A DNA stretch of 64,000 nt, from the NCBI GenBank assembly GCA_000697665.1, contig KL197752.1:25498-89497 (forward strand). The letters run 5' to 3'. The notes beneath the pieces were generated by a model. It ran no database searches. It was not told the origin of the DNA and saw only the letters and a list, made by a program, of their open reading frames with translations. This DNA comes from Jaapia argillacea MUCL 33604 (lineage: Eukaryota; Basidiomycota; Agaricomycetes; Jaapiales; Jaapiaceae). This document shows, in pieces, positions 16,899 through 64,000 of the stretch. Position 1 is the first letter of the stretch, and every line of letters begins with the position of its first letter. Both the position numbers and the translations under genes were made by a program.

Positions 16899-19435
16899 TC
16901 ATTGGAACGATTTCAGGGCAGTCGATGGGGTGACTTCTTCCCGGTAATCACCATCATTCCCCACGTAATCGTGCAAAGGAGTATGATCACTAGAGGGACT
17001 GTGCCCCGCTTCGACCAACGCCGGACCCTCCGAGGTGGACTGGAGACGAAGTGACATCCCTTCGTTCCTCGTAAAGTCCTCCCAATCAAATGCATCAGCG
17101 AGTCCGCGCCCGGAGGATGCTAAGATCAGATGGAGCGCGTGTGTGGGGTCGAATGACTCCGGAGAACCGTTCTTTCCACGAACGGTGACATCCCCATACC
17201 CTTGCCTAAACTTGAGCGAAAGGCAAACCATCACGATGGACGAGATGGCTGTCACAGTCATAGGAATCAGGATGAGGAAGGATATTGAAGATTCGCGGTG
17301 CTGCCACCCCATGGTTCCTGCGAACAGGGTACCGTGATAGCTGATGGTCATGTTTTCGGGGATCTTGTCATCCGGGAAGACGCCGGTCGTTGAATATCCA
17401 GACCGTAAGTCCTACAATAACCGAATCAACTCAAAAGCTAACAATCGGGGAGAAAGACGGGTTACTGTTGCCGCAAACTCAACGAGTCCCCTCAGGTAAT
17501 CCTCCTGTGAGGGACTATGATTAGTGGATACAGGCATTGTTTTACAGTACTCACCAGAATACCATTCGAAAGGGCCTCCCGCTCTTGACTAGTTCCATTC
17601 TGACTCTGAGGCTGGCTGGAATAAAGCGACAATATATCGTTGCCAATTGAGTTTCCCCAAAGACTCTGCGAACCATAGAAGAGGGCCGTAAAGGTCCTGA
17701 CGGTGTATTGTCCGATATCAAATTCGGATATGTTGTATTGACTATTGAAGTCGATTGGTGTGTGGGTTTGAGAAGTAATCGTTTCCGAGACGTTAACGAC
17801 GGTAGTATAATCAACGCGAACTGTTGTGAGTTTCGGCGTGATCATGCAGAAAGTTTGGTTGGTGAAATCGTACGAGGTGCCAATACCTGCCATCACCGCC
17901 ACTAGCATGGCCAAGGGCGTCAAAGTTTAATCAGAACCAGACTTGTGGACCTACTTACGATGTGAAGAGGCAGTATAACCACTGGTGTTGGTTGAACTCA
18001 TATTTTGGAAAGGGCATACATTGCCCCAGAATAGTCCGTCAGTACCGTATGCAGCGACCTGATCGTAATTGGCTGAGAAGAAAGCTCATCAGATTCAAGC
18101 AGGACAGATAAAATTCGTTCACTAACATTGTACTGTACCGTCCGGGCAGTACAGAAACCATGACCACTGCGTGTAGTTACGGAGTGAGGCGTTGGTATCT
18201 CCGGGACCACGAGGAGTGATAAGGAAGTTATATGATAAGATATCCAAATATGCTGGCCCAATATAATCCAATGAACGCTGTTGGCACGATACGTCGGCAC
18301 TGAATCCCTGCTGAAGGAGGGAGTAATTGCTCGTAAATCCAGCTGCATGGGGCAAATCTTGCATAGTATAGTTGCTGAGAATTGGACCCCCAGCAAAATT
18401 AAGACCACTAGGATAGATCGCACGGTTCAATCCAACCGTTTGTGGTGAGCCGGTTGGGAGAATTCCTCCTAATCATATGACGCAGCGCAAGTTCAGCGAA
18501 GAACAGTTCGTGAGCGGATGAATTTACCTGTTGAGATATTGAAAGTCACTGAATTGTAGTTGATGGTGTTTGGAATACCAAAACGACGACCCGCAGATGC
18601 GATGCCGCTGATATCGATAGGGAGCGAGATGACATCCCCTGCCAAAGATGAGGCTACAGTGTTGTCAATATATACAAGAATGTACATCGACGAGAATCAA
18701 CCGTCGTACCTCCGCCCACCTCATAGTCATAATAATCTCCTTCAGGGTATGCAGCTTCGACAAAGTCACGAAAAGCAGGGCTTCCAATGTTCAGCTCCGT
18801 CCCATTGATGGGAACTTCCACCGTTATTAGCGTGGGAGTTAGCAGGGTGGTCCATCTAAAACAACATCGGGATTGGATGGTTGTAAGTTTGAGGAATCAC
18901 GAACCCAGCGGTTTGCGCACTCAGTGCGACAACAAATGTGGCCGTGCCCAGTGTCCACCAAGGATGGCGAGGATTCAAGACGAAAGACTTTTTGGATAGT
19001 TCAATTCCCACATTGAGTGAGAAGAAGGAGACGGGTCTGTGAGAAATAAGGCGGGAAGCCAGCAAGTAGCGAACCGCTCGCGAGCAAAGTCTACGAGGAT
19101 ACAAACTGTTAACTACGAAAAATAGCAGGTGACAACACATACAATGACGAGAGGATTGAAAGTATCGTGGCAATTGTTGTGACAACAGCCGTCGTCGCGC
19201 GGGGATACGTCAATATGGTCGTCGCCAATTTATCGGGCAGAGTAATTTGGTTATAGCGAGCGATTGCCCCATAGAAACCCCAAGCGAATGCCATGAGAGC
19301 TAGCTGACCGATAACGATGGCGATGTGCAAGCTCAGAGTTTGGGATTGAACATGGCGGAGTTGACGCGATGGATTCGTTTCAGAGGGACCTGTTTTCGGG
19401 AGGGACGCAAAAGGAAGAGAGGCAGACGAAGCCAT
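16899..19435 (-). CDS. M2: membrane glycoprotein, second tandem copy
   Basis: A paralogue of M1 with the same exon layout and topology. The ATG at 19435 gives MASSASLPFASLPKTGPSE, TM1 (LHIAIVIGQLALMAFAWGF), TM2 (TTAVVTTIATILSILSSLY), TM3 (LGTATFVVALSAQTAG), the N-glycosylated ectodomain (NYSLL, NYTMQ, NYTQW, NVSET) with GFSADVSCQQ, TM4 (LILIPMTVTAISSIVMVCL), and the tail motifs SFDPTHALHLILASSGRG and DAFDWEDFTRNEG. The tail end differs from M1 in sequence and length, which is the most variable part of the family. By eye M2 is the copy closest to M4 at 62.8 kb, including its upstream flank. No clear damage was seen, though not every splice site was checked. Confidence 0.75.
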
Positions 19436-20600
19436 CGACTTGATGGTTCCAGTAGATGTCAGGCAGGACAATAATCAGCCCTCTCCCTCCCCGAATCTTA
19501 TGGGGGCTTGACGGCTGGAGGCCGTGCTCAGGGACTGCGAGAAGACTGACTAGTGACTTTACGCAGGAACGGACATAGCGCCTTCGTTCGGTGCTTGGGC
19601 GACTGATAAACACAGCGACATTTGACTTCAGGTGACCAGAGCACTCCAGAGCGTTGCTTGTTGTTCTTCGGGCGGTGCCTCATCCGCCCCGCGCAAACGA
19701 GTGTTTACGTTTGACTAAGCCAGAGACCGGTGAATCAATGATATGCGAGTGCACTTGAAGCGATATGGGTACGTACATACATCGATCCTCAATAGATCCC
19801 TCTAACTCATGAGCCCGTGATGTCCTCCCCCAATTAATGGATAAGCAACGAGTGTTTGATAGGCTGGTTAAGTCCCAGAGTCAGGGACGAGGAACGCAAA
19901 AACGGGTCGCTGGTTGATGCGAGGACGCACGAGGCCACAAACAGGCGCCCAACGCTCCTAGGGGAATGCTAAACACCGACATGTCATATCCGCATGCTAT
20001 GAAAGTAAGTTTGAATACAGTCAGTACTGGCTCCGAAGCTTTACAGTGCTCATCTGCGTCCTCAGTTTGGTGTTAGGAAATCTTTGAATAGAACCATCCG
20101 ACAAAACACTAGTGGAAGCCGAACGGCGCCGTACCTAAATGTGTAAGTATAGGCAAGAAGGAAACTGATGGAAGTGGCCAAACGAGACGCCGCTTGCCCT
20201 CTCTTGGTCGTGATCCACACACAGTGAGACGAGGGCGATAGAACGCCTTGCGAGAGCTTTTGGGTCGAGGGGAAGGACTTCAAGGAGATTCAGAGACGAA
20301 AATTGCTCCGTTCCGGGCTGACGGTAGACTTGTGACCAGTCCCTATTTACACGCAACGGTACGCAATGTTGATTCCGAGGGCAAATCGGACGGGAAAACG
20401 CGAGGGAAAGAGAAAATCGTCGCAGGCGGCAGGGTAATTGCCTGTATGAGGACTAGTAGGTTCGGAGCAAGCCCTTCTCCGTGCCAATGCGTGGGAACTT
20501 TGACGTGCTTCCAGAGATCGGCCGTTTTCGAGTTATCTTCGTTGATTCATCACGGCGGAGATACCCTTCGCTGTGGCCTGTTCTACCTGTCGCTAGGTTC
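19436..20600. repeat. 5' flank of M2, matched by the inverted right arm
   Basis: No gene seen. The first 900 bp or so have an inverted counterpart at about 62,829-61,950. A shared landmark is the stretch at 20,150-20,300 (coding nothing obvious), which matches 61,950-62,115 on the other strand, including the words CGAGGGGAAGGACT and CTCTCTTGGTCGTGA. The match stops near 20,340-20,360, and the helicase fragment begins a few hundred bases later. Confidence 0.65.
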
Positions 20601-21020
20601 ACCAATCAAAAATCGTGACTCACCTCGAGAGCCTTGAGGGGGTTGATCACTATGACTGCTTTTTTTTGCACCCCCGATGGTAGCCAATCCCTCGAAGATC
20701 AGAGACTTGCCATAACCAGTGCCAGCACACAGAATATTAATACTGTCATAGCCCCGAAGATCCCTTGAGATAAGCTCCAGTTAGCTCCAGTTGCCAAGAA
20801 TCGGACTCAAAGGACAGCTTGAGCTTCTCGACCAGCTTTTTCTTGATATTCTCGGGCAAGAAATTTGGCGAATCGGATTGACACCTTGCAAGCGTCGAGA
20901 GGGAAACTTTCGTTGGCTAGGAGTTCCTGGAGACAGAGGCACAGATCGTGGAGCCTTTCGTGGAGTTTGAGGGGCAGTGGGGGCCAGCGTCGAGGGGGCG
21001 CGTTCGCTCTGTTTCAACTT
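20600..21020 (-). pseudogene. Fragment of a RecQ-like DEAD/DEAH helicase, broken
   Basis: The - strand carries, in shifting frames, NFLPENIKKKLVEKLKLSFE, SDSWQLEL, then ISRDLRGYDSINILCAGTGY with GKSLIFEGLATIGG directly after, and finally a VINPLKAL-like piece near 20,645. The GTGYGKS word is the Walker A motif and the following helix is typical of the RecQ-like helicases that are numerous in mushroom genomes. At least two frameshifts separate the blocks, and only the N-terminal region through motif Ia is present; motifs II to VI are absent. The preceding Ser/Pro-rich stretch (up to 21,017) is probably its disordered N-terminus. It lies exactly where the right arm has no counterpart, so it is an insertion in the left arm or a loss on the right. 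Confidence 0.65.
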
Positions 21021-21987
21021 TCATGGCAAGTCGCGTTAAGTGAGACGCGTTGGGCCTTGTCGACTTGGTCGTTGATCAACACACCGCGAAGTTTCTTGCT
21101 CCCGACAGCATTGTCCGATTGGCGTGCCATATACTTGTTTATTGGCGGACCATCGGACTGTCGAGCTCCAGCAGCATATAGGAAGCTTAGCAAACCATCA
21201 AGGTTGACATCCGCTCTTTTCCTCCTTCACCCAGGTCTTCGGTTGACCATACCATCGAGTCCCGCCCTTCTGCGAAGTTGCAACAATTCGTGCTACATTT
21301 GATATCTATTGCTGCTAACCTTCGACCCTTCTATGGACGACAACGAGCTGCGAAATTGTTCATAGTAAGTCACTCGTCCTCCCTCTCGCGGTCCTCCTTC
21401 GACTTCACGCGTTATCAGGTGTTGTCACCAGATCATGATTCCCTGATCCACCTGCTCAACACAAAATCTGTTCTTATTGAGCGTTGGTCCACCGGCACAA
21501 GCCTTCAAGCTTCAAGTTGAAAGCGGTGCGAACGCTCCTTGGTTGCTACGAAGATCTTCAGATCTTGGCGTCTACTTGATCGGTACGTATGCTCATCCGC
21601 CACCCTCCACCCATAACTACCCGTCATCCCATCGTCCCAACCCCATGCAACCGACGGCCTTGTTGGTGTCCAACCAGGTGTTGTTGCGCCCAGTGACTGG
21701 TGTTTCGCCACCGGCTGATGGAATGCAGTTGCATTAAATCCCTCGCCCACCTGGACAGTGATATGACTAACCTGACGGACTTCGCTGGTGAATGTCTTTC
21801 AACAAATACAACACAGAAAGCTATATCAGTCGCTCATCCGCACGACCATACTCCAATCGGTAGTGTCCCATGTGTAGACTCATGGGTGAATGACCCAACG
21901 AACCAGGGGGACAGTTTATACGAAAATGTCGTCCAGTGCATCCAAAAACGGAGAGAAGGGGTCCCAATATCGAACCCCAAAAGTATT
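21021..21987. repeat. Spacer between M2 unit and M3, related to 25.3-26.2 kb
   Basis: No intact gene seen. Parts align by eye with 25,480-26,200 and, inverted, with 61,870-61,400. One landmark is the CTTCCACTGGCAGGTATCG-type region, here degenerate near 21,225. Others are GCGAAGTTGC near 21,272 and a TATCAGGTG motif near 21,415. The last 80 bp are the 3' flank of M3. Confidence 0.5.
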
Positions 21988-24560
21988 TTACTTGACGAAG
22001 CTCCTTGGGAATGTCTTCTGGGCAGTCAACGGGGTAGATTCTTCCTGGTAATCACCATCATCCCCTATGTAAGCGTGGAAAGGAGTATGATCACCGGAGG
22101 AATGGCGGTTCTGCTTCAAAGAGCCGCGCCCCGCAGGGACCAACGCCGGTCCCTCCAGGGTGGATCGAAGACGAAGTGGTATTCCTTCGTTCCTGGTGAG
22201 GTCCTCCCAATCAAACGCATCCGCAAGTCCACGTCTGGAAGATGCCAAAATCAGATGGAGCGCATGTGTGGGGTCGAATGACTCTGGAAAGCCGTTCTCT
22301 CCACGAACTGTGACGTCCTCATGCCTATGTCGATACTTGAGCGAGAGGCAGACCATCACGATCGACACGATCCCGGTCAAGGTGGAGGGGATGAGGATGA
22401 GGAGGGAGAACGAGGATTCGTGGTGCTGCCACCCCATGGTTCCGGCTAGGAGAGTACCGTTATAGCTGACAGTCATATTGTCGGGGATCTTGTCGTCCGG
22501 GAACACGCCAGTCGTTGAAAACCCCGACCTTAAGTCCTACAGGAACTGAATTAAATCAAATCTAACGATTTAGGACAAAGACACGTTACTGTTGCCGCAA
22601 ACTCAACGAGCCCCCTTAGGTAATCCTCCTGTGACCCTATGAGAATTGAATACATGGAATCGGTTTTAGATGCTCACCAGAATACCGTTCAAGAGGGCCT
22701 CCTGCTCTTGGCTAGTTCCATCCCGACTCTGAGGCTGGCTGGAATAGACTGAGGAAATCCCATTGCCAATGGAGTTTCCCCAAATACTCTGCGAACCATA
22801 GAAAAGGGCCGCAAAGGTCCTGACAGTGTACTGCCCAATATCAAATCTGGATATGTTGTACTGGCTGTTGAAATCCATTGGGATGTGGGGGCGAGAAACC
22901 ACGATTTCTGAGACGTTCACCACGGAGGTATAATCAACGCGGACTGTTGTGAGTTTTGGCTTGATCGTACAAATGGTCGTGTTGATAAAGCTGTACGATT
23001 GGCCTAGGCCTAACATCATCGCCACTGTCATAGGCAGGTGGTGTCAAAGTTCGATCAGAAGAGTAAGGGGTTAGGCTTACGATGAGAAGATGAATCGTAG
23101 CCACTTGTGTTGGTCGAACTCATGTTTTGGAAGGGGCAGATACTGCCCCAGAATATTCCATCTGTTTGTGCCACCGTAACCTGGTTGAAATCGGCTGAGG
23201 CGAACGAAAGTTCATCAGATTCAATGTAAGACGGATGAGATTCGTGCACTAACACCAGAACAAGCCGTCCGCACAGTATAAGAACCACGACAGCTGTGTG
23301 TAGTTCCGTGGTGATTCGACTCCGGGACCATGAGGAGTGATCGGGTATGTATACGAGTACAAGTTCAACGTTGGTGGTCCAAACAAATCCTTTGAAACCT
23401 GTTGGCATGATACGTCGGCACTGAATCCCTGTTGAGTGAGGGAGTAATTGCTCGTAAACCCTGCTGGATGGGGCGGATCTTCCATGGAAAAGTTGTGGAG
23501 GATTGGGCCTCCAGCGAAGTTGAGGCCGTTAACGAAGACCGTACGGTTCAACCCAGCTGTTTGTGGCGAGCCCGTTGGAAGAATTCCTCCTGGGAATTCA
23601 GCGTAAGGTCAGTGAAGAATTATTCGCGAAGGAATGAAACTGTACCTGTGGAGATGTTGAACGAAACGAGATTGTAGTTGATGATGTTGGGAATACCAAA
23701 CCGACGACCAGCAGATGCAATGCCGCTGATATCGGTAGGAAGCGAGATGACATCTCCTGATAGAGACGAACCTAGAGCACTGTTAATCTACGGGAATGGC
23801 CGTGGACAGAGAAAATCGATGAGCGTACCCGCGCCTGTCTCTCTGTCATAATACGACCCAATAGAATATCTAGCTTCAACAAAATCGCGAAAAGCAGGGC
23901 TTCCGATGTCCAGCTCCACCCCGTTGATAGAACATTCCACTGTTAGTGCCGTGGGCGTTAGCAAGGTTGTCCATCTAAACTACCAATGTCAGGATCAGAT
24001 GGTCGCAAGTTTGAGAAATCACCAACCCAGCGGTTTGCGCACTCATTGCGACAACAAAGATGGCCGTGCCCACGGTCCACCAAGGATTGCGAGGATTTAA
24101 AACGAAAGACTTCTTGGACAGTTCAATTCCCACATTGAGGGAGAAGGAGACAGGCCTTTGGGAGACGAGGCGGGAAGCCAGTAAGTAGCGAACAGCGCGT
24201 GAGCAAAGTCTACGAGTAAACGAGGTTAAAATCCATAACGTTGGCAGAACGACAACACATCAACACATACAATGACGAGAGGATTGAAAGTATCGTGGCG
24301 ATCGTTGTCACAACAGCCGTCGTCGAACGGGGAAAGTTCAATATCGCCGTCGCCAAGGTGTCGGGCAGAGTGATTTGGCGATAGTGAACAATTGTCCCAA
24401 AGAAACCCCAAGCAAATGTCATGAGACCGAGTTGACCAAGAACTATCACAATGTGCCAGCCGAGGGTTTGGGATTGCACATGGGAGGGGCGTCGAGTCGG
24501 ATTCATTTCAGAACGAGTTGTTTCCTGGAGCATGGACGAAGAAGAGGCGGGTGAAGACAT
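21988..24560 (-). CDS. M3: membrane glycoprotein, third tandem copy
   Basis: A paralogue of M1 and M2 with matching exons. The ATG at 24560 gives MSSPASSSSMLQETTRSEMN, TM1 (WHIVIVLGQLGLMTFAWGF), TM2 (TTAVVTTIATILSILSSLY), TM3 before the first ectodomain exon, an ectodomain with GILPTGSPQTAG, NFSMEDPP, NYSLTQQGFSADVSCQQ, NYTQLSWFLYC and NMSSTNTSGYDSSSHRK, TM4 (LILIPSTLTGIVSIVMVCL), and the tail SFDPTHALHLILASSRRG with DAFDWEDLTRNEG. The C-terminus is longer than in M2 and ends RSFVK before a TAA at 21988-21990. One tail residue differs (SSRRG instead of SSGRG). It is divergent from X1, about 2.5 kb away, and no clear break was seen. Confidence 0.75.
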
Positions 24561-27079
24561 CAACTTGACGGTTCCAGGACAAGTCGGGGAAGGTTGCAAG
24601 AAGTGCTCCTCCCAAGAAGTCAGCAGAGTCGGAATACCCAGAGACGCCAAGAGGAGCGACTTTGCACTGGGAAGTCATGCCGATGCCGTGCGGTACTTGA
24701 GCGAGCAAAGATCGCGGCGATGTCCGACTTCATCTGACCAAGGCAGTGCACTCCACCCAGCTTCCTCCCTCGCAAATGGGTGGAAGTTCGATGGGAGACT
24801 GCTGGTAGGTGAGTGGTGAAGTAGCTCGCGAGTTGGAGGACCGCAACGATATGAATACACACATAAGCATCGTCGATCGAGACGTCTCTGTCAGTCCACC
24901 TGCGCTAGTCGAAGATAACTTGCGAGTATTTGATGGGATAATCGATCCGAGAGCAAGCAATGAGAACCTCAAAACGTTTCATTAATGGCTGAAGATGTGC
25001 ACGAGGCCACAACGAGGATCCTTGCGTGAGCGCCGGGTGCCCATATCCACGTTGGCTACGTTGGCATCAGGACGCTCTCAAGGCATGCTGTTTCCTGTCG
25101 TCTTCAGTGAGTGCAATGCAGTATCTAGGCCTAAATAGACTCACCATCTGATAAGACCCCGTGTGGTGAAACATCTTTGGAACGGCATCAAGGAAACAGA
25201 TTTGGGACTCAGTCGGGACGTTGAACTGTGTTGGAAACGAATGACCCACGACCTGTCGCGATCTGCGAGCCACTGCTTTCCAGGATGGACAACATTAGAC
25301 CTTCGCGAGGACGTTTGGATTGACGGGAAGGAGAGCCTATGGCTCAAGGGCAACGATTCTTCGGTATGATGAAAGTGGCCTGAGACGCTGACCGTTTCGA
25401 TGTTTCGATTTTGGGAAATTCGGATTCTCAAAGGGGACGACGGTCATTCCTTTTCTGGACGACGTTATTATTGTCGGCACGCATTGCACACTGTAGTACT
25501 GGCATGCAAACCCAACCCATTGTTCATTGGCCGTTATCGAACTTTCGGTCCTTAGCAACATATAAAGGCGTCGAGAAACCATCCAGCTCAACACCATCCA
25601 TTATTTTCCTCTTCCACTGGCAGGTATCGTCGATACAATTGGCACCCACCCTCCGGCGAAGTTGCGAAGTACAGTGCTGCGCTTGACGATATTATGGGTC
25701 ACTGAAATCCGTCGGTGATGTATTTCGACCCCTCGAGTCTAACAATGGGCAACAACTCTGCGTTATGTTGAGAGGGTTTATGGTAAACCACCTTTTATGC
25801 ATTTCGAGAGTCTTTCTCGTTGAACTATCATCACTAGACAGCATCAGTCCACTCTATCATGTACACTGTTGGCCCAAGCCCCGCCCTTTCAATTGATACA
25901 GGTTCATCGTGTTGTTGATTGAAAATGGTATGTTATGTTTCTTCAAATTGGTTTCTTCCAGGCTGTAGCTGACAATATTTCCGGGTTTTACAATGTACGT
26001 AGTGATATCTGCCCACTTGCCCTCCCATCCAGCCTGCGACCGCCTTCACGGGTTTCTATCAGGTGTCGTTCAGTCTAACGCCGACTCGCTGGCCACCTAA
26101 CCGCAAACTACTATGATTTGGCCACCAGCACGGATACCCACCTTACTCTATCCTTCACTCCAACCGACCTCGCCTGATGCCTGGGTTATTTTCTATCAAG
26201 TGCCGTCGAGCCTAGCACCGACTCCCTGACCACCTGATTACGAGGCTGAAACCCAAAATCCTCCGAGTTTGCCCACTTGAATCAGGGCGCCGTTCCTTGA
26301 GCCTCCGAGCCTGACCTCTACAGACCTTTTTGTCTTACAACAACATTTCTGTCAGTACTAACGTCATCGCGTTCATGTTCCTCGCCTATGTGGTTGTTTT
26401 CCGTCTTCGCCGGGACCACTCTTGCAACCTTGCCTTGTCGGGATCAGTATGTATCGTGGATTTGACCTCAACAGCGACTTTGTCGGCGACATAATTTTAG
26501 ATCCCACCCAAATTGCACAGCCACTCTTTCTGCCTTGTGAAGCTGTACCTTACGGCATATTCGTCGAGGAAGCCATTGTCTTCATTCTTGTCACCTTCCC
26601 ATCACCCTGCCGGTCAGGTGTTCCCGAGTGCGTCGTCGTTCCTGTATCAGTAGCGTCCGGGCCGTCGTCCGGGCTTTACATCGACCGTCATCAAAGGGCC
26701 AAACTACAAGTCTGAACTACTGCATATGTCAATGCGACACGGTGATCCTCTTCCTCTGCACTCTCGACATGCAGACGTCCGCACTTCGCGGTCTTTCTGT
26801 CCCTGTTTCAATGCTCAAGTGGTCGCAACGGCTTTGGACTTCACTTCTTCTGGATAGTCACTCGACAGCCATCTCGTTCCTCAGCCCCGAAACTCACGGC
26901 GGTGAAGACAACAATCCACCAGATGCCACAGTGGGGGCTTTGCGTTCCTCCCCTGGTTAGGTCAATCCACCGCAAATCGCGGAGAATGTTGGGTATAAGT
27001 ATGGTTGATAACTTTGAGTAGAGGCATCTCAAACCACTCGACAATCACCCACATCCTCAGCAATCTCAGTCTCGACAAC
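24561..27079. repeat. Shared 5' region between M3 (-) and X1 (+)
   Basis: A 2.5 kb divergent spacer. From about 25,480 onward it matches the inverted sequence 61,870 down to 60,427 in the right arm, with only small gaps. Landmarks are the CCCATTGTTCATTGGCCGTTATCGA region, split here at 25,515-25,540, the GGGATCAGTATGTATCG word at 26,438, and the ATGCAGACGTCCG stretch at 26,770. Around 26,050-26,250 a segment of about 130 bp is present twice in tandem (TTTCTATCAGGTGTCGT and TTTCTATCAAGTGCCGT). Open frames at 26.4-26.96 kb overlap each other and look like shadows; no gene is called. Confidence 0.6.
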
Positions 27080-29273: not shown

Positions 29274-29399
29274 TGGATCCTGCAAACTGCCTTTGGTTGT
29301 GATTTCTATTGATTGATTTATTCCTTCTACTATCGTTTTAGTGGAATGGACTGTTGTGTACGAGATATAGTAGTACGAGCGAATGTTTAACTCGTTCTG

Positions 29400-31257: not shown

Positions 31258-31368
31258 GGAAAGTCAAAGTTGTGGCTGTGCTCGCGATCGTCGATTCCAA
31301 GTCCGATCATTTTTCGACTTTACCACGGTCGATGCTTCACTGACCCTCCTACTACTCCTCCTCAAATC
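31258..31368. promoter_or_regulatory. 111 bp shared divergent promoter, ZNHIT2-like / DBP9
   Basis: Only 111 bp separate the two ATGs, so both genes must start transcription within this segment or inside each other's 5' ends. No TATA box is apparent. The pairing is notable because both products act in RNP assembly (snRNP and ribosome). Confidence 0.6.
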
Positions 31369-48922: not shown

Positions 48923-51382
<2,460 letters not shown>

Positions 51383-52898
51383 ATCGGTTATCTCTTATAT
51401 TGGACATTTGGGATCGGTGGGAGTCACCTTGGCTTGACGTGTGGGGAAGCTTCTTGGTTATACTTGTACGTATGGGTTGGAGGAAAGGATTTTTGTGGAC
51501 TTGGCGGGTGTGGTTTGGTGTATGGATTACTTACGGACATGTTGGAGGGGACACATCTTATACCATATATACTTACGTCTTCAGCTACGCACTTCGCAAG
51601 TTGGATTGCCTACGGTGAATGTGTCAGTGGTATGGGCGGGGTTTTGGTGGATTGTGTCCCCCAAGGACGACAACGCCCCATCATTATTGGCTGAGTACTT
51701 ATCTCAGTTCGGTGAAGTCGCGAAGGTTAACTGGGCATCACCCGTCAGTCGATACATAACTCAGCGAATTGGGAGGAAACCTGTAACGTTGTCTGAGGAT
51801 GGAAATTAAATCTCTGTGAAGAATGTGTTCCACGAGGAAATGAACGAAGGCGGGAAAGATGAGAGACTGTTGGTTGGAGAACACGCGAAGATATGATCGT
51901 TGACGAGCCCGGGAGATACATGCGCTGAAGAACGAGGTGGAGGAAGTATTGGTGGGCGACTGAGAACATGAGGGCTAGTTGGGATTAACGACGAGTGGGC
52001 CTCGGTGTTTCTGGTCAAGTAAGAGATCAAGGAACGATCCCAGCACTTCCCAGCAGGCGACATTTAGCTAGCAGAGACACCAGGAAGCGCACCACAGCCA
52101 CGTTGACGGAACCACAATTCCTTGGCCATTTTTGGCAGGCGACCTTCCATAATAGGCAATGCGATGAACTCTGTTTCGTTGTGTCCGATGTCCTGCCCCC
52201 ATCAACCTTGTTTTCGTCTTGTGTCTTTCCAGCTGGATCGACTGTCTGTCCCAGATTCACCAATATACCAGGCAGTGGTCTATTCGCCAACGGGCGACCC
52301 AATATCCTCTGGCCAGTCGAGAACTTAAACTTACCTTCATCCGAGATTCCATTTTCAACGGGTCCATCGCCCTCCTCGACGCTCGTCAGCTTGCGAACCG
52401 AGGACTGGAACTTATATCGTCAAAACCCTCTCTTTCTCCTCCACTTACCATACCTCCCTCTTTCTCGGAGAGTGGCGTGTTTGGCTGGACCCTCAACCTT
52501 AGGCTTGGCAAGAACTTTGAGGGCTCAATTTGATGGCGTTCATTTGCCGAGTCAGATCTGCCATCGCTACTGAATATCTTCTTGTCCTTGTCACCACCAT
52601 TTTTACCGGCGAGTCAACCACTCCGAGTCTCGACATTTAATCATGCACAGCAATTCCGCCTTGTCTCCGCAACCTAGCAGATGATATTGTTGTCTAACTC
52701 TAATCCAACGCCCATCTTACCCTTCTTGAGACCTCTCAATATCCACACATGGTTCAGCCTTTTTATCGGTACACGAACGTTCGAGTCCGCTCTTTCGATT
52801 GGTCTACACCTACTTGCATCCTCACCAATTTGAGTTGGGCAAAATGATCCATGCATGGTATATAACCTCTTGGTAAGTGGTACCCATCTTCAGACAAG
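51383..52898. other. 1.5 kb gap, no gene recognised
   Basis: Between the mannosidase stop and the RNase T2 start. From about 51,995 to 52,573 several + strand frames are open at once, and a - strand frame is open at 52,027-52,302. None has a domain I know. The frame ending near 52,533 contains FGWTLNLRLGKNFEG, which looks protein-like, so a small or decaying gene cannot be excluded. The last 300 bp should hold the RNase T2 promoter. Confidence 0.4.
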
Positions 52899-54109
52899 AT
52901 GTTCATTCCAGGAGCGAACCTCATTCCTTCCCTGTTGATTCCTGCTCTCGGTATCTCAGGCCTTTCTGGCTTGCAAGAACAGCTCTCTCAATGCCCCAGG
53001 CCGCCCGTCACAAGCTGCTCTGCCGACGCTGGAGGCGCCGATAGTTGCTGCGTGAGTTCTCTCTGCTTCGCCTCCATTGCTCATTATGCTAACCGCTCTC
53101 TGGATTAGGTCGTCACACCAGGAGGCGTCCTCGTTCATGCCCAATTCTGGGACTTGGGCTACGGAGTCGCAGATTCTTGGGGAATCCACGGTCTTTGGTC
53201 AGCTCAAGTTCTTCTCCCTACTCTACTCTACTCCTACTAACCAGCATACTCTCCAATTCTCTCCCCAATATCTCTTGTCACATTACAGGCCAGACAAGTG
53301 TGATGGCACCTTTTACGAGAACTGCGATAGTTCGCGAGCATATTCCGGCGGACAAATCACCCAGTTGTTACAAGATAGCGGTAACCAGGATCTACTCGAT
53401 TATATGAACACGTACTGGATCCCGAATAATAACAATCCCGAAGCGTTCTGGGCGCACGAGGTGAGCTTGATGCCCGCTATCCCGACCCAAATCTCAATCC
53501 ACTTATACACCTCTCGAAATTTTAGTGGGCGACTCACGGTACCTGGTAAGGGATTTCATCCGCGTCCTCCTTGTTTTGGATTTGTGGCTCATTCCTTCAA
53601 CGTAACATGTAGCGTGAGCACCTTGGAGCCCAACTGCATTGCCAACTACCAAGAAGGGGCGGAAGTCGTCCCATATCTCAAGACTGTCGTTGGCGTATTC
53701 CAAGGGTTGGATACCTACAAGGCTTTGACCAGTGCTGGGGTTCGTGTCTATTCCCAATCGGAAGATCGTTCAAACCGTTCACCTGATTTTTTCCCGTCGT
53801 GTAGATCACCCCATCCCATACGAAAACTTATAGGCTCGACGAGTTGTTGCAAGCCGTTGAATCTGCGACGAGCTACGTTCCCGACGTAAGTCCCTAACCA
53901 TCCCTCACTCCGTATCCACTCGTTCAGTCCTGATTATCCTCTATCTTTTCTAGTTTGTTTGTAAAGGAAAGACTTTATCAACCGTCCAGTACTACCTCAA
54001 CGCGGTAGGTCCGCTTCAAAATGGGCAATTTTTACCGTCCCATGCAACTCGCAAGTCCAGCTGCCCGAGCACTGGCATCAAGTGGCCCCCCAAGGAGTTG
54101 GGTAACTGA
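52899..54109 (+). CDS. Secreted ribonuclease T2
   Basis: A base-nonspecific endoribonuclease, secreted or vacuolar, that cuts RNA through 2',3'-cyclic phosphates. The ATG at 52899 gives a hydrophobic leader (LIPSLLIPALGISGLSG), then the Cys-rich N-terminus with CSADAGGADSCC. CAS1 reads WGIHGLWPDKCDGTF with the first catalytic His, and CAS2 is split by an intron and reads FWAHEWATHGTC with the second catalytic His. Later parts are LEPNCIANY, VPYLKTVVGVFQGLDTYKAL, FVCKGKTLSTVQYYL and a C-terminus with KSSCPSTGIKWPPKELGN. About seven exons are joined. The family length of roughly 270-290 aa fits, and there is no extra C-terminal domain like that of yeast Rny1. The stop at 54107-54109 faces Paf1. 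Confidence 0.9.
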
Positions 54110-54383
54110 ATGGCATCGGAGGACGAATGACGAATTGAGTTTGATGGATGGAGCTTCGGGATTGTCGATTTGTCGTGATATTTCTCCCGGTTGATGTTTC
54201 TACGTTGGACTTTGTCCATAGTTTATCTTGCAATTCATGCACTAGCGAACGTATTGTATCGAGAACAACCGACGTCCAAAGATGAAGCACAGCTGAGGCA
54301 GACGGCCAACAACGACGGGAAAGCGGTCTTATGGTGCCACAACATCCAAGAAATAACACTAACACCAATCACGATACAACGAC
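54110..54383. other. Convergent 3' region, RNase T2 / Paf1
   Basis: 274 bp between facing stops. It should hold both 3' UTRs; no coding signal. Confidence 0.55.
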
Positions 54384-56078
54384 CCTATGCCATAACATCT
54401 ACATCCAAACCTCCATGGCCCTGACCCTGCCCGGGTAACAGCGAATCATCCGCCTCACCCTCCGCATCCACGTCCGCTTCACCTTCCGGTCGTGCAAGCA
54501 AATACATAGGGTCCACAACTTCCGCCAACATCTCATCTCGCTCGTCTTCTTCTTCTTTCGTCATGGGTACGTGGGAGACTTTGACGACGTGCCATTTGTC
54601 TAGGTATGCTTCGTGGATCTGAGGGGTGAGGTACGGATCGGGGTCAGTGGCCGGGGTTACGGACAGGGTGTGAATGGAGGAGAGGGACTGACGTTTTGAC
54701 GTTTCTTCTTCAGCATCATCTTCCGCTCAATATTCTTATAGTAAGCTCCCTTGGGTCTCCTTGGTGCTTTGGACTCTTCGCCTCCAAACACGTCAGGTGT
54801 TGATGACCTATCGATATCAGTCCCATCATCCAACACAAGCAAAAACTCATTCGGAACATCTTGTTCGACTTTGGTCACTTCGTAATCTCGGACAAAGTGG
54901 AATGATGTCGGCTGTTTATTTATTAGATTAGAGGGGGAGTTGCGGTAGGTGAGAGTGTTGAGAGGGACGTACGTCTGAGTCTTCTACTATGGAGTAGGGT
55001 TCACGTTCGAGCCTTGATTGTTTGAACTGAAGCGCCGAATCATCGTCTTTGGTTAGATAGTAGGCCAAGAAATGATCTCCGTCCGATTCCATAGGTCTCA
55101 AAATCGCACAATCTAATCGAGGATCTTCAACCTATCAAATCCCGCAACAAGTTAATTCAAGTCCAGCAATGCCAACCACTCTCACAATGAATAATGGCAA
55201 TAAGACTCACGTCGACGGGTCTTTCACCCGGCCGTTCAGCGAACCTGAACAAATCATACGCGTTGGCCCAGATATCTGCGTCTGGAAGGATTTCGTAAGA
55301 ATCGACAGCGGTCACTCGGGACTTTGTTGGGTGTTTGAGGGATTTGAGATCGAGCTTGTCGTTGGCTGATGCGAAAGATGCTTCGATGTCTCGTATTTGG
55401 GCCGCACGGGAAATGTCTACTATGTTTTCCATTTGCTTCCTGTCATAATGCCACTGGTTAGTTTCGGGGAATTCAAAATGAAGAGCCGAGAGAGGAGACG
55501 AAGTGGGGAGGGTGAGTACAGTACGCACGGTTCTTGTGACAGTGAAGCTTTGGAAACACCCTCCCGACTGAGATATTCAGTTTTTCGAAGCCAGGATACG
55601 TGTGCGGGGAGTGCTTGGGGTGTTGCAGGCGTTGAACCAGAGAAACCACCGTTCACGTAGGGTGTAGACGTTGATGCTGGGTCTCCCAGTAGGAAGTGGT
55701 CCTTTGGATGGAGTTTGGGCAGATTATTTGGGTCAGGGTTCAGAGCTACGCATTGAATTCAATCAGCCTACACAGTCTCTCCCTTCCGTAACGTTTGGGC
55801 CACTAATCAGTACAAGGTGAGGGGTACTAACCTGAATCATCAGCTCCCTCCTCCCACAAACACTCCCACTTTCCCAGATCCAAGGGCATACCAAGCTCGG
55901 CGTCTACTACCATTGGTAAAGGTGTAGAGTCTGCTATTGAAGTCATAAATTCTGGTTTGGTATAACGCATTGGGTTTGTAGGTATGTCGAGGAGTTTCGG
56001 TGGGCATGGTGGTGCTGGGAGGGGGTTGGAGTAACGGACGCGAACCAAGAGGTCGAGTTTGCTCTTTTTAAAGGACAT
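54384..56078 (-). CDS. PAF1: Paf1, subunit of RNA polymerase II PAF1 complex
   Basis: A scaffold subunit of the Paf1 complex, which travels with RNA polymerase II and supports histone ubiquitination and elongation. The ATG at 56078 gives MSFKKSKLDLLVRVRYSNPL followed by PAPPCPPKLLDIPTNP, the conserved N-terminal segment. Further exons read LHPKDHFLLGDP, HVSWLRKTEYLSREG, IEASFASANDKLDLKSLKHP, VDSYEILPDADIWANAYDLF and EDPRLDCAILRPMESDGDHF. Then come FLAYYLTKDDDSALQF, DYEVTKVEQDVPNEFLLVL, and YYKNIERKMMLKKKRQNI, all typical of Paf1. The C-terminus has the usual acidic region (KEEEDERDEMLAEV) and ends in a Gly/Asp-rich tail with TAG at 54384-54386. The reading frame appears whole. Confidence 0.9.
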
Positions 56079-56348
56079 ATTGGGTTGAATTGCTGGAGGA
56101 GTGATCGGCAGGCGCGGGAGGGGGCGCTAGTCTGCTGGAGACTTGGCCTCTGGAGGTTCAGAGAAACAGGCGTGGGAGAAACCTACTTATAACCAAACGG
56201 AAGTGTAGCGAATCGCCACGTGTGAGAATTTATCTGATAAGATTACAGCAGCAGGCGTTTGTCGTCCCACCGTCGCCAAGCAGGGTCCATTCCCGTAGAA
56301 CAGTCCAACCAGCTAAGCGTGCGCGAACACTCTTCCACCTCAACCATC
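56079..56348. promoter_or_regulatory. Divergent promoter region, Paf1 / Sec14-like gene
   Basis: 270 bp between divergent ATGs, so the two genes share a short promoter region. No motif was identified with confidence. Confidence 0.5.
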
Positions 56349-57735
56349 ATGTCCTCTGATCCCACTACCACTCCATCCACTACTGTTCCTGCTGATTCTA
56401 CCGCAGCTTCAGCTGAACCCTCCGTGACCCCAATATCCCCACCCTCCGAACCTGCTCAACCTTCCGTAACTGCGCCTCTGGAGTCTGAGACCGCGCCAGC
56501 CGCAGAGGCTGAGAATAAAGATGAAAAACCTAGTGATGTTGAAGAGGAGGAACCTCAGAACGCTTTGACAAGGCAGTTCACGGAAGAAGAATGGAAGGCG
56601 GTCAAGGTGTTCAGGGTCAGTTCACCTGAACCTAGCTTGACAAATGGCTCATCTGACATGAAATCCCGTTTTACCTTTCATGCTAATAGAGAGAGCTGTC
56701 TCAGACGTTCGCAGAGGCTTTCCCGGATACGCCGGATGCTGCGACGACGCCTGTCACTTTCTGGGGCGTTACTCTCGATCCTAAGGGACCGAAGAATGCA
56801 CGAGCGACTGTTGTCCTCATGAAGTTCCTTAGAGCGAGGTGAGATTCCGCAACGATCCTTCTACGGCACTTTGGTTGATCAAGTTTCACTGGCCCTGCAG
56901 GAACTTGAGCGTGTACGAAGCAAAAGAGATGTTAATCTCCACTCTGAGATGGCGCCAGTCCTTCAATGTAGACGCAGCGAACAAAGAAGAGTTTGATGAA
57001 GATATCTTCGGATCACTTGGATATATCTTCGGCAAGGACAAGGAGGGACGACCCATTGTGTACATTCCGTTCCATGTGTCTCTAACATCGAACATTAATC
57101 TCTCAATGACAGCTACAACTTGTACGGAGCTAACAAAGACTTGAAAGCCGTTTTCGGTGACGTCCCTCGGTTCATTCGGCGAGTAACTCTTCCTCGCTTC
57201 CACTCCATCTGCTCTGTCTAACCTTTCGACGATCGTGTCTAGATGGCGAGTTGCATTCATGGAGAAATGTGTTTCCTTCCTCGACTTCGAGACAGTCGAT
57301 CAGATGATCCAAGTTCATGGTGAGTCATCCTCCTCCACCATTTAATTAGCTTGGTACTGACATTAGGTCGTGTGGAAAGATTATGAAGGAGTGAGCTTCA
57401 CGAGTCGGGATGCCAACTCCAAAAACGCCGCTTCAGAATGCTCGAGTATCTTCCAAAACCACTATCCCGAGCTCCTAGTACGTCCTCCTCCCCCTTCTTC
57501 CTCACCCACCCCCTCCTGACACCCCTATCCCTCTCAGTTCAAGAAATTCTTCGTCAATGTCCCCTCGGTCCTCGCCTGGGTATTCTGGATCTTCAAACCT
57601 CTCATTAGTGCCAACACTCTCGCTAAAATGAGTGTGGTGGGTTCCGGATCAAGTGCGATTGGCAAGGCGATTTTGCCGTTTGTGGATCCGAAGGAGCTGC
57701 CAAAGGCTTATGGCGGTGAGTCGGAGGGGTTTTGA
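56349..57735 (+). CDS. Sec14-like CRAL-TRIO lipid transfer protein (SFH5 type)
   Basis: A lipid transfer protein, most likely for phosphatidylinositol between membranes. The ATG at 56349 gives a Thr/Pro/Ser/Ala-rich disordered N-terminus (MSSDPTTTPSTTVPADSTAA), then EEEWKAVKVFR. Across introns follow AEAFPDTPDAATTPVTFWGV, LKFLRAR and NLSVYEAKEMLISTLRWRQS (CRAL-TRIO N-domain), then the lipid-binding domain with GSLGYIFGKDKEGRPIVYIP, YNLYGANKDLKAVFG, RWRVAFMEKCVSFLDF, VHDYEGVSFTSRDANSKNAA, FQNHYPELLFKKFFVNVPSV, and FKPLISANTLAKMSVVGSG. The C-terminus FVDPKELPKAYGGES is the usual end of Sfh5-type proteins. About seven introns. The stop is at 57733-57735. Assignment to SFH5 rather than another Sec14 paralogue is likely but not certain. 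Confidence 0.83.
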
Positions 57736-58068: not shown

Positions 58069-58248
58069 TGAAGATTGTTGATCAGCACCTCCTCGTTCGC
58101 TTCGAGACCTCCGCTTGAGTTATTATTATGAGTTTAAAATTCACTTGCACTAAAATATCTCGTACACGATGGTCAATTGCGCCAGAAAATGATAGCAGGA
58201 GCCGGTCAATCGAAAGAAATCACAACCAAAGGCAATTTGCAGGATCCA

Positions 58249-60426
58249 TCAATAATTCAAACATTTACGCCGTCTCGGAGGCGCTGGAAGGGTATCCTTG
58301 TGAGCATCCGATCCAGATATCTGAGAATGGAGTGAGAATACGTACTATGGCGAGGTCACGACAATAATCGGGAGTATTAGCGTTCGTGGCATATTGGAAG
58401 ATAAAATCATACTGGATTTGAAGTCAACGATGAGCGTCCCGGCGGAAAACCCAACACTAGGTACTCACGATTTCGGGGTATTCAGCGGTCAGGTTTTCTT
58501 TGGAGAGACTGGAAGGGATTGAAAGTGCACAAGGTCGGTCACAGCCGAAGATTGCAAAATGACAATGACGGACAGATGATCCGTATAGAGCCTCCCAATC
58601 ATATAAACCATCCCATTATCTCGTAGGTTAGCATTCTTCCGGTCTCGACTATCAGTATTGTGGGTCACAAAAGCGTCAAAGAAATCACTCACCAACACAT
58701 AAGGAATCGGCATTATGGCGTCAACGAGCATCCGAGTGGCATCCATCATCTTATCTGGCTCCGCCCATGGCCAGTACTGGTCCAAATCGCCGCGGAGCTG
58801 TCTACCGTTAGCGACGAAATAGTTGATGCCGGCAATCGTAAGTTTGACTTAGGGCGATGATATTGGTCAGGCTCCACAGGACAGGAGACGGGAACTGCAC
58901 TCACGGACAGTGTACATGGCGTTGAACCACGGCTGCGTTTGACGGTTGGCATTGCCAAAGTTGTCTGCGAAAGCCTCAGCGAATGCTGTCATCTTGGCCA
59001 CCTTTCTCGAGGGCGGATTGAATGCCTCTGCACCGTCGATGACCAATTGAGTCATCTGCTCGCCGCAAAGCAATGGATTGTCCACGGTTAACATGCCGAG
59101 AACGGCATTGACTGTAGCTCGGTCAAACTGGATAACCTTGACCCTGAAACGGTCGGGCTCCCCTCTCCTGCGCTGCTCGAAAACGGGCCGCTCGAAACGC
59201 CAAGCTTCAAATTTGCTCGCGACGGGCTCGACAGTGGGGTGTTCTTGGAGGTAACGCAAGCCTTCTTCAGCTTGGTGCTGAACGAGGTCAAGGACGCGTC
59301 CGTAGTCTTCTTCCACATTCCAAACGCGGATATCGAAGAAGACTTGGTTATCACGCTGTGGGTCACATGTGTAGGTGATGTTGACATCGGGGCACTTCGC
59401 CTTCCAAGGAAGGGTTCGGGAATAAGCGACCAACCAAGCGGTGAGGAACGACTTCAAACTCTCTGCGAAAAGTTTCCCCTCTCCACGACCGCGCCTAGTC
59501 AAATCGCCAGCGAACTCTTGGTACCTAGTGACGACGAGCTGGAGAGTCGAGGGAAGGAATTTATGGCGGTTAGAGTGGTCGAGGCCTGGTTGAGGAACGG
59601 CGTTGTCGAGATCGGTAGGATCATAATCCTGGTTGCCTTTGAATATCGCTGCAAGGTCTGCGGTCTCGAGAGGGTCGCGATATTCCAAGAGATGGTTGTT
59701 GCCTTGAACCTGTTCCCATAACTGATCACGGATGCGACGCTGAGTCCCTATGTCCACCCCGCCGTATAGAGTCTGAACGATGCCAGTAACATCGTTGAGC
59801 GTAAGGTTGTCCAATTTCGCCGACGAGATGACGAGCGAGCAAACGACGACGTTCTTGGTGATCGAGGTGAGTGACTTGGAAGTGTATTCGTACGAATAGA
59901 AGTCGGCATCAATGCGGCAGAGGCCACCAAGCTCTCCCGTGGTGAGAGCATATATGGTGGTCGAGGATGCATTGGCAGAGTAATTGCCCAATAGATATCC
60001 CAAAGCGGAACCAACTATGGTGTTGACTCCCTTTTGCTGCAAGGCAGGAAGTTGGTGTCAGACGGGGGTGTCAATCGATGCTCAGCTGAGAAACGTACCA
60101 CGTCTCCGCTGATGAATGCCCCAAGGGAGTCTAACGGTACACTTGAGTACATAAAGACGGCGAGGGTAAGAGCTTTCCTTACCAGAAATCGCCTGGGATA
60201 CATCACTTGCATTGTTGGATACGCCACACTGGAAATACTGGTACTTGTAGATCACCTTGCTGATCGGCACTAGACCTGGATCAAATTGAGGGGAGTTGAC
60301 CCTCTGGTAAAAGGTGTCGATACGAGTCTGTGCGACTTGAGCAAGCACATTGAGGGCGTCGTTAGCCTGCTTCTCTTGTTCCGGATCTTCAAGGGATTTC
60401 TTGAGTGCAGATACGGTGGAGCCCAT
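58249..60426 (-). CDS. X2: unrecognised protein of about 600 aa, right-arm copy
   Basis: Paralogue of X1 on the opposite strand. The ATG at 60426 gives MGSTVSALKKSLEDPEQEKQ. The long exon (from QKGVNTIVGSALGYLLGNYS to the 3' donor near 58,905) is open throughout and matches X1 at nearly every residue: over about 118 residues from LTTGELGG I count eight differences by eye. Differences rise toward the 3' end, where the shared pieces are AGINYFVANGRQL, QYWPWAEPDKM, GMVYMIGRLYTD and YDFIFQYATN; both copies end LNY before TGA (here 58249-58251). The splice donors and acceptors sit at the same places. The first hydrophobic Gly/Ala stretch (LGYLLGNYSANASS) is kept. Like X1 it has no signal peptide and stands divergent from an M gene, here M4, 2.4 kb away. 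No function is claimed. Confidence 0.72.
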
Positions 60427-62829
60427 GTTGTTATCGCCGAGATTGCTGGTGGATGTGGGTGATTGTCGAGTGGTTTGAGATGCCTCTGCCCAAAGCCATC
60501 AACCATACTTATACCCAACAGTCTCCGAGATTTGCGGTGGATTGACCTAACCAGGGGAGGGACGCAAATCCCCCCGCATGCTATCCGTGGGTTGTTGCCT
60601 TCACCGCCATGAGTTTCGGGGCTGGGGAACGAGATCGTTGTCGAGTGACTATCCAGAAGTAGTGAAGTCCAAAGCCTTTGCGACCTCTTGGTCATTGAAA
60701 CAGGGGCAGGACGGCCGCGAAGTACGGACGTCTGCATGTCGGAAGTGCGGAGGAAGAATATCACCGTGTCGCGTCGACACAGACTTTGGACTTGGAGTTT
60801 GGCCCTTTGATGACGGTCGATGTAAAGAATCGGACAACGGACCGGACAATGCTGAAACAGAAACGGCGGCGCATTGGGGACACTGCGAAGGTGATAAGAA
60901 TCAAGACAATGGCTTGCTCGACAGATTTGTAACTGAATGCCGTAAGGTACAACTTCGCAATGCACGAAGGCTGGCTGTGCAATTTGGGTGGAATCTAAAA
61001 TTCTGTCGCCGACAAAGTCGCTGTTGAGGTGAAATCCGCGATACATACTGATCCCGACAAGACAAAGATGCGAGAGTGGTTCCGATGAAGACGGGAAATA
61101 ACGAAATAGGCGAAGAACATGACGATGATGCTAGTACTGACAGAAATGTTGTTGTAAGACAAAAGATCTATAGAGGTCAGGTTCGGGGGTTCAATGAACG
61201 GCGCCCTGATCCAAGTTGGCAAACTCGGAAGAATGTTGGTTTTCAGCCTTGACCTCAGGTGGCCAGGGGGTCGGTGCTAGGCTCGACGACACTTGATAGA
61301 AATGACCCAGGCATCGGGCGACGTCGGTTGGGGTAAAGGGTAGAGGAAGGTGGGTATCTGTGCTGATGGCCAAATCAGGCCACTTGAAGGACCATAACTG
61401 AACGTTTTTCAATCAACAATTCTGATCATGATGAACCTGTGTCGGTCGAAAGCCGCGGGGCCTATGTCAGAGGTGTACATGACAGAGCGGACTGATGCTG
61501 GTGAGTGGTGAAATTAATTGAGAAAGACTGTCGAGATGCATAAAGGGTGGCTTACCATGAACCCTTTCAACACAACGCAGAGTTTTTGCCCATTGCTGGA
61601 CTCCAGGGGTCGAAATGCATCACCGACAGATTTCAGTGACCCATAATTAATATCGTCAAGCGCAGCACTGTATTTCGCAACTTCGCGGGAGGGCGGGTGC
61701 CAATTGTATCGACGATACCTGCCAGTGGAAGAAGAAAAGAAGGGGTGGTGTTGAGCTGGATGGTTTGTCGACGCCTTTCTATATTGCTAGGGTCCGAAAG
61801 CTCGATAACCGGCCAATGAACAATGGGGATTGGGTTGCATTGAGTTTGTATGCGCAATGCGCGTGAAGAATGTCGTCCTAGTCTCGTTCTAAGTCCGTCT
61901 CGCGTTCAAGCTCCGCGTAGGGCCTCTTGGAACGTGACTACCCGGAACGGAGCGATTCTGGTCTCTGGAGTCCTTCCCCTCGACCCAAAAGCTCTTGCAA
62001 GGGGTTCTATCGCCCTTGTCTCTCCGCAAAGCGACGTGTATGTAGGTCACGACCAAGAGAGGGCAAGCGGTGTCTGATTCACCTTTTCACCACTTCCATC
62101 AGTTTCCTTCTTGCCCAACCTTACACATTTAGAGACGACGCCCGGCCGTTCAAATTCCACTAGTGTTTCGTCGGATACTTAGTCAGTTCTTATGCCAATA
62201 TTTACCTATCCCAAACTGCAGTCACTGATCAAGGATGTGGATGGGTTCTGCACAGCTTCGGAGCCAGTACAGACTTTATTCAAACGTTTGGCATGCGGAT
62301 ATGGCCACCTTTCGGTGTAAGATGGAGCGCTGGGTGCCTGTTTGTAGCCTCGTGCATCCTCGCATCAATCAATGACGTGTTTTTGAGATCCTCTTCCCTG
62401 ACTTTTGGAGAGTTGATCAGCCTATCAAACACTCATTGTTTATCTCTTGATCGTGGGAGGACATCATGACCCATGAGTTAGTGGGATCCATTGAAGATCG
62501 ATATATGTACGCATCCCTGTCGCTGAGTCGAGCGCACTCGCATATCATCAGTCTCCGTCTCCGTCTTTGTCGAACTTAACCGCTTATTTGCGCAGGGTGG
62601 ATGAGGAATCGGGAGAAGAACACAAAGCGACGCTCCGGTCACCTGAAGTCAAATATCGGTGGTTCTCAGTCGCCCAACCACCGCACGTTGGAGCTATGAC
62701 CGTTCCTGTGCAAATTCACTCCTCTCGCAGTCCCTAAGCACTGCCTCCAGCCTTCAAGTCCTCACAAAATTCGGGGAGGAAGAGGGCTGATTATCGTCCT
62801 GCCTGACATCTGCTAGGACCATCAAGTTG
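60427..62829. repeat. 5' region between X2 (-) and M4 (+), inverted copy
   Basis: Matches 27,079 back to about 25,480, then, past about 61,920, the M2 flank 20,350-19,436. The switch occurs within roughly 61,870-61,950. Open frames such as 61,046-60,270 (-) overlap shadows of the left arm and show no domain; no gene is called. Confidence 0.6.
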
Positions 62830-64000
62830 ATGGCTTCGCCTGCCTCTTCTCCTTTTGCGCCCCTTCCCAAAACAAGTCCCTCTAAAACGAATCCATCGCG
62901 ACAACTCCGCCATCTTCAAACCCAAACTCTGAGCTGGCACATCGTCATCGTCATCGGACAACTAACTCTCATGGCATTTGCTTGGGGTTTCTATGGGGCA
63001 ATCGTTCGATATAACCAAATCACTCTACCCGATAAATTGGCGACGACCACATTGACATATCCACGCTCGACGACGGCCGTTGTCACAACAATTGCCACGA
63101 TACTTTCAATCGTCTCCTCATTGTATGTGTTACCATCTGTCATTTATCGTAGTTGGCGTTCTTATCCTCGTAGACTTTGCTCGCGAGCGGTTCGCTACTT
63201 GCTGGCATCCCGCCTTATTTCTCATAAACCCGTCTCCTTCTTCTCACTAAACGTGGGAATCGAATTATCCAAAAAATCTTTTGTCTTAAATCCTCGCCAT
63301 CCTTGGTGGGCCCTGGGCACGGCCGTCGTTGTTATCGCACTGAGCTCGCAAACAGCTGGGTTGGTTAGTCCTCAAACTTGTAATCATCGATTCTGATGTC
63401 AATTTAGATGGACCACCCTGCTAACTCCCACACCGATAACGGTGGAACGCTCCATCCATGGGACGGAGCTGAACATTGGAAGCCCTGCTTTTCGTGAATT
63501 CGTCGAAGCTAGATACCCTGCAGGAGATTATTATGACTATGAGGCGGGCGCAGGTACGACCGTCGACCATCTCCTCTACGGATATTTTTGCATGGATTGA
63601 CAACGCTGTAGGTTCATCTTTGGCAGGGGATGTCATCTGGCTTCCTACCGATATCAGCGGCATCGCATCTGCGGGTCGTCGCTTTGGTATTCCAAACATT
63701 ATCAACTACAATTTGGTGGCTTTCAATATCTCCACAGGTAAATCCATCTGCTCAAGAACCGTTCTTCGTCGACGTTGACCTTGCGCTTCGTCTCATGATT
63801 AGGAGGAATTCTCCCAACCGGCTCATCACAAACGGTTGGGTTCAACCATGGCATCTATGCTAGCGGTCTTAATTTTGTTGGGGGTCCAATTCTCAGCAAC
63901 TTTACTATGCAAGGTCCACCTCATGCAACGGGATTTACGAGCAATTACTCCCTCCTTCAGCAGGGATTCAGTGCCGACGTATCGTGCGAACAGCCCTCGG
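62830..64000 (+). CDS. M4: membrane glycoprotein, inverted copy, cut by window end
   Basis: Paralogue of M1-M3 on the opposite strand, incomplete here because the window ends within its ectodomain. The ATG at 62830 gives MASPASSPFAPLPKTSPSKT, closest to M2. TM1 (HIVIVIGQLTLMAFAWGF), TM2 (TTAVVTTIATILSIVSSLY), CSRAVRYLLASRLISHKPVS, TM3 (LGTAVVVIALSSQTAG), then WTTLLTPTPITVERS, the ARYPAGDYYDY motif, LPTDISGIASAGRRFGIPNI, INYNLVAFNISTG, GILPTGSSQTVGFNH, NFTMQGPPHATGFTSNYSLL and FSADVSCEQ follow through joined exons. No break is visible in the part shown. Confidence 0.75.

Follow-up and report, generated by a model that had tools for sequence, protein, structure and literature searches.

The locus considered here raises the question of whether two inverted sets of genes, one on each side of a 26-28 kb block, are the arms of a repeat that still turns the block over, or whether they are parts of an older gene cluster. 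The window, i.e. the whole stretch of 64 000 nucleotides of Jaapia argillacea MUCL 33604 DNA that we analyzed, is C44:25498-89497, C44 being one of the 95 contigs of a 43.7 Mb genome; coordinates are window positions unless prefixed. The short introns and the set of genes also suggest a mushroom-forming fungus. A first-pass annotation had described two genes, M and X, as an inverted pair (left 18.2-20.35 plus 25.5-29.5 kb, right 64.0-58.03 kb). Self-BLAST of the window placed the pair at just these positions, and the self-alignment that the annotation had named as its own check recovered inverted matches of several kilobases with 81-84% identity. The three inverted matches within the window, given below with the segments that they define, are far beyond chance level.

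16420-20282, unstranded: M part of the left arm, holding M2 and its flanks (downstream ~0.5 kb, upstream 0.85 kb); matches C44:91379-87463 in reverse (83.9%), seen in the window as 18277-20282 against 63994-61966 (82.8%, 2070 columns)
20283-25503, unstranded: left-only piece of 5.2 kb holding M3; a gap between collinear inverted matches, with no counterpart at this place in the right arm
25504-29393, unstranded: left arm, X part with 5′ flank; inverted matches of 25504-25946 to 61840-61384 (84.3%) and of 26114-29393 to 61377-58130 (81.2%, 3329 columns, bit score 2555, E 0)
29604-31508, unstranded: ZNHIT2 and the first helicase codons; inverted copy, in broken form, at C44:91468-93379 (83%, genome DNA search)
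58130-61377, minus strand: right arm, X1 with 5′ flank; open in exons 1-3 (60426-58906) and in the exon after them
61384-61840, unstranded: right arm, X-M spacer; 84.3% identical to 25946-25504
61966-64000, plus strand: MR and its upstream flank in the right arm; truncated at the window edge, with homology running to C44:91379; model start 62830

The arms stood as annotated; the homology, however, is longer, reaching past the window and taking in ZNHIT2 and the helicase start (in the self-alignment of the extended contig, only matches >150 bases were listed). Global alignments of the arms (n = 3) gave identities of 86.5, 82.6 and 83.0%; overall the arms differ by 14-19%, with many indels. An inverted pair longer than 1 kb and including non-coding sequence is present, as the term inverted segmental duplication implies. 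The usual identity threshold for segmental duplications is ≥90%, and the long aligned pieces, at 81-86%, fall below it.

One arm could be a misplaced allele or the product of a chimeric join. A run of N (a gap or withheld sequence) is located near the left window edge, and beside it, just left of the window, stands a 99.7% identical inverted copy (369 aligned bases) of 117-486; the assembly may therefore be imperfect nearby. On the other hand, misassembly would hardly yield arms 14-19% apart with many indels, copies with different fates (ZNHIT2 whole in one, broken in the other) and dN/dS well below 1, nor would it leave 51300-57300 of the block single copy; we consider such an artefact very unlikely.

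Beyond its edges, the window turned out to belong to a larger cluster. The inverted pair is there, but it is no simple pair, as C44 carries at least five near-complete X copies (XL, X1, X2, X3 and X5) and one fragment, X6. X6 and X5 are located left of the window; they are followed by M1, M2 and M3 (minus), XL (plus), ZNHIT2 (minus), the helicase gene (plus), the block and a Sec14-like gene, after which come X1 (minus), MR (plus), a helicase stub with a broken ZNHIT2, X2 (minus) and X3 (minus). The rest of MR, the stub, the broken ZNHIT2 and the last two X genes are beyond the window edge. The name of the Sec14-like gene was given by the annotation; its frame 56833-57141 has a weak CRAL/TRIO Pfam match below the cut-off (E 0.052), and a genome search with the spacer that separates this gene from X1 gave no match other than the spacer itself and 45 bases adjacent to X3. 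A window edge can thus make part of a multi-copy cluster look like a two-armed inversion.

The genes of the left array were modelled as follows; the M and X models were predicted from splice-like ends and alignment.

12797-15349, minus strand: M1, membrane-protein-like; open 9-exon model (four-copy alignment, tblastn)
16899-19435, minus strand: M2, left-arm partner of MR; open 9-exon model, 86% DNA identity to MR
21988-24560, minus strand: M3; open model, frame running on to a stop at 21988, start approximate
27080-28602, plus strand: XL; exons 1-3 open, the next exon in the model meeting a stop near 28960
29661-31319, minus strand: ZNHIT2-like gene, zf-HIT (Pfam E 1.1e-8); unbroken copy, limits being the outer ends of open frames
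31369-33822, plus strand: DEAD-box helicase gene (Pfam DEAD); end taken from the open frame

For M, a genome DNA search gave at least four copies, all on C44 (the query, 86, 76 and 72%), and the 18 matches of a protein search, also a minimum, were all on the same contig. The three left M genes are direct repeats of one another (73-78%, self-BLAST of the window). All four models are open (that of M3 continues to a later stop), and GC would be the first dinucleotide of intron 5 in M1 and M3. Synonymous divergence (Nei-Gojobori) was 0.247 for M2-MR, 0.619 for M2-M3 and 0.904 for M1-M2, while dN/dS was 0.19-0.34 in the six pairs; the introns of M2 and MR are 18% different, a distance of 0.207 beside the dS of 0.247. 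MR is closer to M2 than M3 is; M3 is thus probably older than the arms, and since the right arm lacks it, loss on that side is an easier explanation than insertion on the left. With the 704 aa M model, no Pfam match was obtained at E up to 0.5. By eye, the models show hydrophobic segments close to either end and numerous N-x-S/T sites.

In the genome search, the left-only piece of 1.8 kb that precedes M3 gave a single partial relative, on C47 (75%, 499 bases), and short matches on six other contigs. The latter are pieces of 35-110 bases in 20319-20491, at the end of the left M arm, which recur on C1, C3, C4, C7, C16 and C40 (80-94%), possibly a small repeat near a breakpoint. No intact mobile element that could be the cause was identified. 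A dispersed unit, TCAGGTGGC...GACACCTGA, is present upstream of XL, X1 and X2, the cores having two to three mismatches; it also occurs in arrays, and a dispersed repeat lies beyond X3 (places noted: 26059, 61279 and C44:101994-102994). Its core has 26 genome matches with at most one mismatch, on C1, C4, C13 and C44, against none for the reversed control.

The search with X DNA found at least six places on C44 (the query, 81, 78, 77, 77% and a 69% fragment) and two weak ones on C4; with the exon-3 protein, at least five C44 matches of 79-100% and a 63% fragment were found, along with a distant relative on C4 matching in two pieces (59 and 42%). The C4 relative, in L049 (C4:48001-57000) at ~3513-5315, has a proline-rich insertion and starts with MGSTIS. 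The start MGSTxS is common to this relative and the five near-complete copies; it resembles an N-myristoylation signal. In the models, X1, X2, X3 and X5 all read through the place of the XL fourth-exon stop. Nei-Gojobori dS was 0.43 for XL-X1, 0.26 for X1-X3 and 0.28 for X1-X5, and dN/dS was 0.08-0.27 in the ten pairs of the five copies (exons 1-3; X6 and the C4 relative left out). Between XL and X1, a difference of 14% is seen in the 5′ flank and one of 25% in introns 1-2. Judging by pairwise dN/dS, both M and X appear to be under purifying selection.

The 560 aa X model matched no Pfam family at E up to 0.5, nor did exon 3 match any entry of NCBIfam, a prokaryote library. Sorting nexin-15, the sole PDB sequence match, was rejected as a relative (E 0.067, not significant), and a structure predicted for X1 exon 3 (377 aa, single sequence) was too poor for use (mean pLDDT 37.3).

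The neighbours of M and X tell more about how the copies arose. ZNHIT2 had been annotated as a single-copy gene of the interior; it has a counterpart in the right array, the unbroken version being that of the window. The DNA search found at least three places: the query, a short piece (75%) adjacent to it, and the 83% copy at C44:91468-93379. In the right copy 44 alignment columns are missing within the first exon of the model, and there is a shifted frame in the zinc-finger region as well as an in-frame stop; the left copy is free of such breaks. The helicase stub (C44:91610-91467) matches residues 1-47, with one extra residue, and then ends, while the left gene continues beyond that point. 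Both genes are whole on the left but damaged in the right array, which makes the left unit the probable source. For the ZNHIT2 pair dS was 0.226 over 389 codons in four chosen segments, with codons at gaps or stops dropped.

Duplication of M and X gene by gene, with no segmental event, would fit those copies that stand outside the unit context (X5, X6 and M1); homology spanning flanks, intergenic sequence and the neighbours ZNHIT2 and helicase start makes it barely credible.

Read in reverse, the right array runs X3, X2, ZNHIT2 copy, helicase stub, ~90 bp of filler, M 3′ flank, MR and X1; the left unit runs M2, (M3), XL, ZNHIT2 and helicase. The stub thus stands head to tail with the M 3′ flank, end of one unit against start of the next, as in a tandem array, and this is the arrangement given by head-to-tail duplication of the left unit. 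We consider it likely that the locus is an old, locally expanded paralogue cluster of tandem origin, whichever step inverted the copies. A unit of M, X, ZNHIT2 and the first ~47 helicase codons would have been duplicated head to tail, a step deduced from how the right array places the stub next to the M 3′ flank; the redundant copy of ZNHIT2, whose breakage is observed, would then have decayed. The extra copies are seen in inverted place beyond the 26-28 kb block, and the simplest step to put them there would be an inversion that had one of its breakpoints within the tandem array and so separated both the block and the intact unit from the extra copies. The X genes would since have been shaped by losses and by limited exchange, presumably gene conversion judging by mosaic sites.

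Where the right array now lies could be accounted for by one past inversion or, equally, by an inverted insertion. With the latter, the tandem origin is shared, but a piece with the tandem junction would have been copied once in reverse beside the Sec14-like gene, e.g. by template switching, and the block would never have turned. The helicase stub and broken ZNHIT2 of the right array fit this route equally, as does the ~90 bp junction filler; it also needs, however, loss of the extra tandem copy at the left locus, and we see it as a possible though less probable course of events. Inversion may have come before or after the copying.

Whichever step inverted the copies, tandem origin leaves some points that call for more events. 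The parts of the unit agree in divergence (M2-MR dS 0.247, ZNHIT2 pair 0.226), and with dS of 0.23-0.25 for M and ZNHIT2 and 0.43 for X the arms are old. As the XL-X1 value exceeds that of M2-MR (0.25), a single date for the arms requires that X coding parts were replaced by exchange. Furthermore, the right ZNHIT2 piece is on the outer side of MR and adjoins X2 instead of X1, which calls for an additional loss or for three or more M-X sets; X3, X5 and the fragment X6 require further events as well.

Exchange among the X copies left traces along the gene. For the X region in five copies, a PHI-like index was 0.459 as compared with a permutation mean of 0.576, and for the coding part alone 0.412 as compared with 0.540; in each case none of 5000 permutations was as low. 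At the 231 sites where two copies stand against three, the preferred pairing shifts along the gene: in one bin XL pairs with X2 at 15 sites, in the next with X3 at 9. Windowed identity pointed to one tract in particular:

28346-29117, plus strand: possible mosaic tract of XL, ~63-77% identical to X1 and X2

Most bins on either side are at 79-94%, but one lying farther upstream is at 72%. These sequence patterns are likely to reflect ectopic conversion among copies, of which some are in opposite orientation, though rate variation along the gene could produce a similar signal in part.

Does the block still flip? The annotation had supposed that the inverted repeat could drive inversion of the whole 28 kb block. 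Recurrent inversion needs uninterrupted identity of a few hundred base pairs; such identity is absent between the arrays, the longest exact inverted match being 58 bp. A population with both orientations of the block, produced by arms that recombine now, would fit with the two inverted arms of several kilobases and with the mosaic X genes, which point to a degree of exchange between copies, also between those in opposite orientation. With arms 82.6-86.5% identical, dS of 0.25-0.43 and the 58 bp limit, this part of the annotation was not borne out. Divergence between repeats was called a potent suppressor of recombination in the accessible part of a study of mouse cells (PMC9881173). Given low identity, short exact matches and such suppression, frequent present-day flipping is unlikely, and we regard a population polymorphic for the block as quite improbable.

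The block itself had been taken to hold ten or more single-copy genes. That description suits 51300-57300, which found only itself in the genome search (a ribonuclease T2-like gene is located there at 53056-53886, Pfam E 2.1e-8); it does not suit the copied ZNHIT2 or the following feature:

33857-40788, unstranded: separate tandem duplication within the block; P450-like pair with a copied piece of the adjoining aldehyde dehydrogenase-family gene

The P450-like pair (33857-36508 and 37313-39955) is in direct orientation and 88% identical by self-BLAST; its name comes from reading the translation and from a Pfam match below the cut-off (E 0.013). The copied piece (37074-37300 and 40561-40788, 92%) is from a gene with a Pfam match at E 2.7e-6 that by reading resembles gamma-glutamyl phosphate reductase. 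The search with 31509-44500, in which six of seven candidates were scored and its own place was missing from the table, gave eight genome matches at 65-78%, of which seven fell within the P450 pair; the other, 67 bases long, was in the helicase gene. Like the M-X unit, this duplication also copied a piece of a neighbouring gene; unlike the M-X arms, its copies are direct and still adjacent.

Compared with known systems, the locus shares with the inverted segmental duplications of polymorphic inversions (human examples: PMC6748972, PMC4591017) two arms of several kilobases around a block of genes; it differs from them in that its arms are 81-86% identical and have no long identical tract. For basidiomycetes, our literature search on segmental duplication found no paper. 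Tandem multigene clusters are known to evolve by birth and death together with gene conversion. The M-X locus resembles such clusters in its adjoining paralogues, whole and broken copies, mosaics and dN/dS below 1: the paralogues are at one locus, the broken members are X6, XL (with the fourth-exon stop in its model) and the ZNHIT2 copy, and the rest appear to be under purifying selection. It is unlike them in having part of the array inverted 26-28 kb away, and in M and X being without a Pfam match.

The inverted duplication is real, fairly ordinary, and older and more complex than the window shows; tandem duplication and one inverting step probably explain it. Gene stubs such as the broken ZNHIT2 and the truncated helicase can reveal, from one genome alone, the direction and the mechanism of a duplication. 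The most interesting part of the locus is the putative M and X families. One could speculate, with little confidence, that they form a fast-changing recognition pair, e.g. for self/non-self, with variants made by conversion within the split inverted array: M would be a membrane protein with a large N-x-S/T-rich region, X its soluble, possibly N-myristoylated partner, and X residues 371-467 would be shuffled between copies in both orientations. Among the five copies, pairwise identity is 92-99% for X residues 1-200 and 62-92% for residues 371-467; with a near-frozen N-terminal part and a mosaic C-terminal part, the X family is a candidate for functional study.
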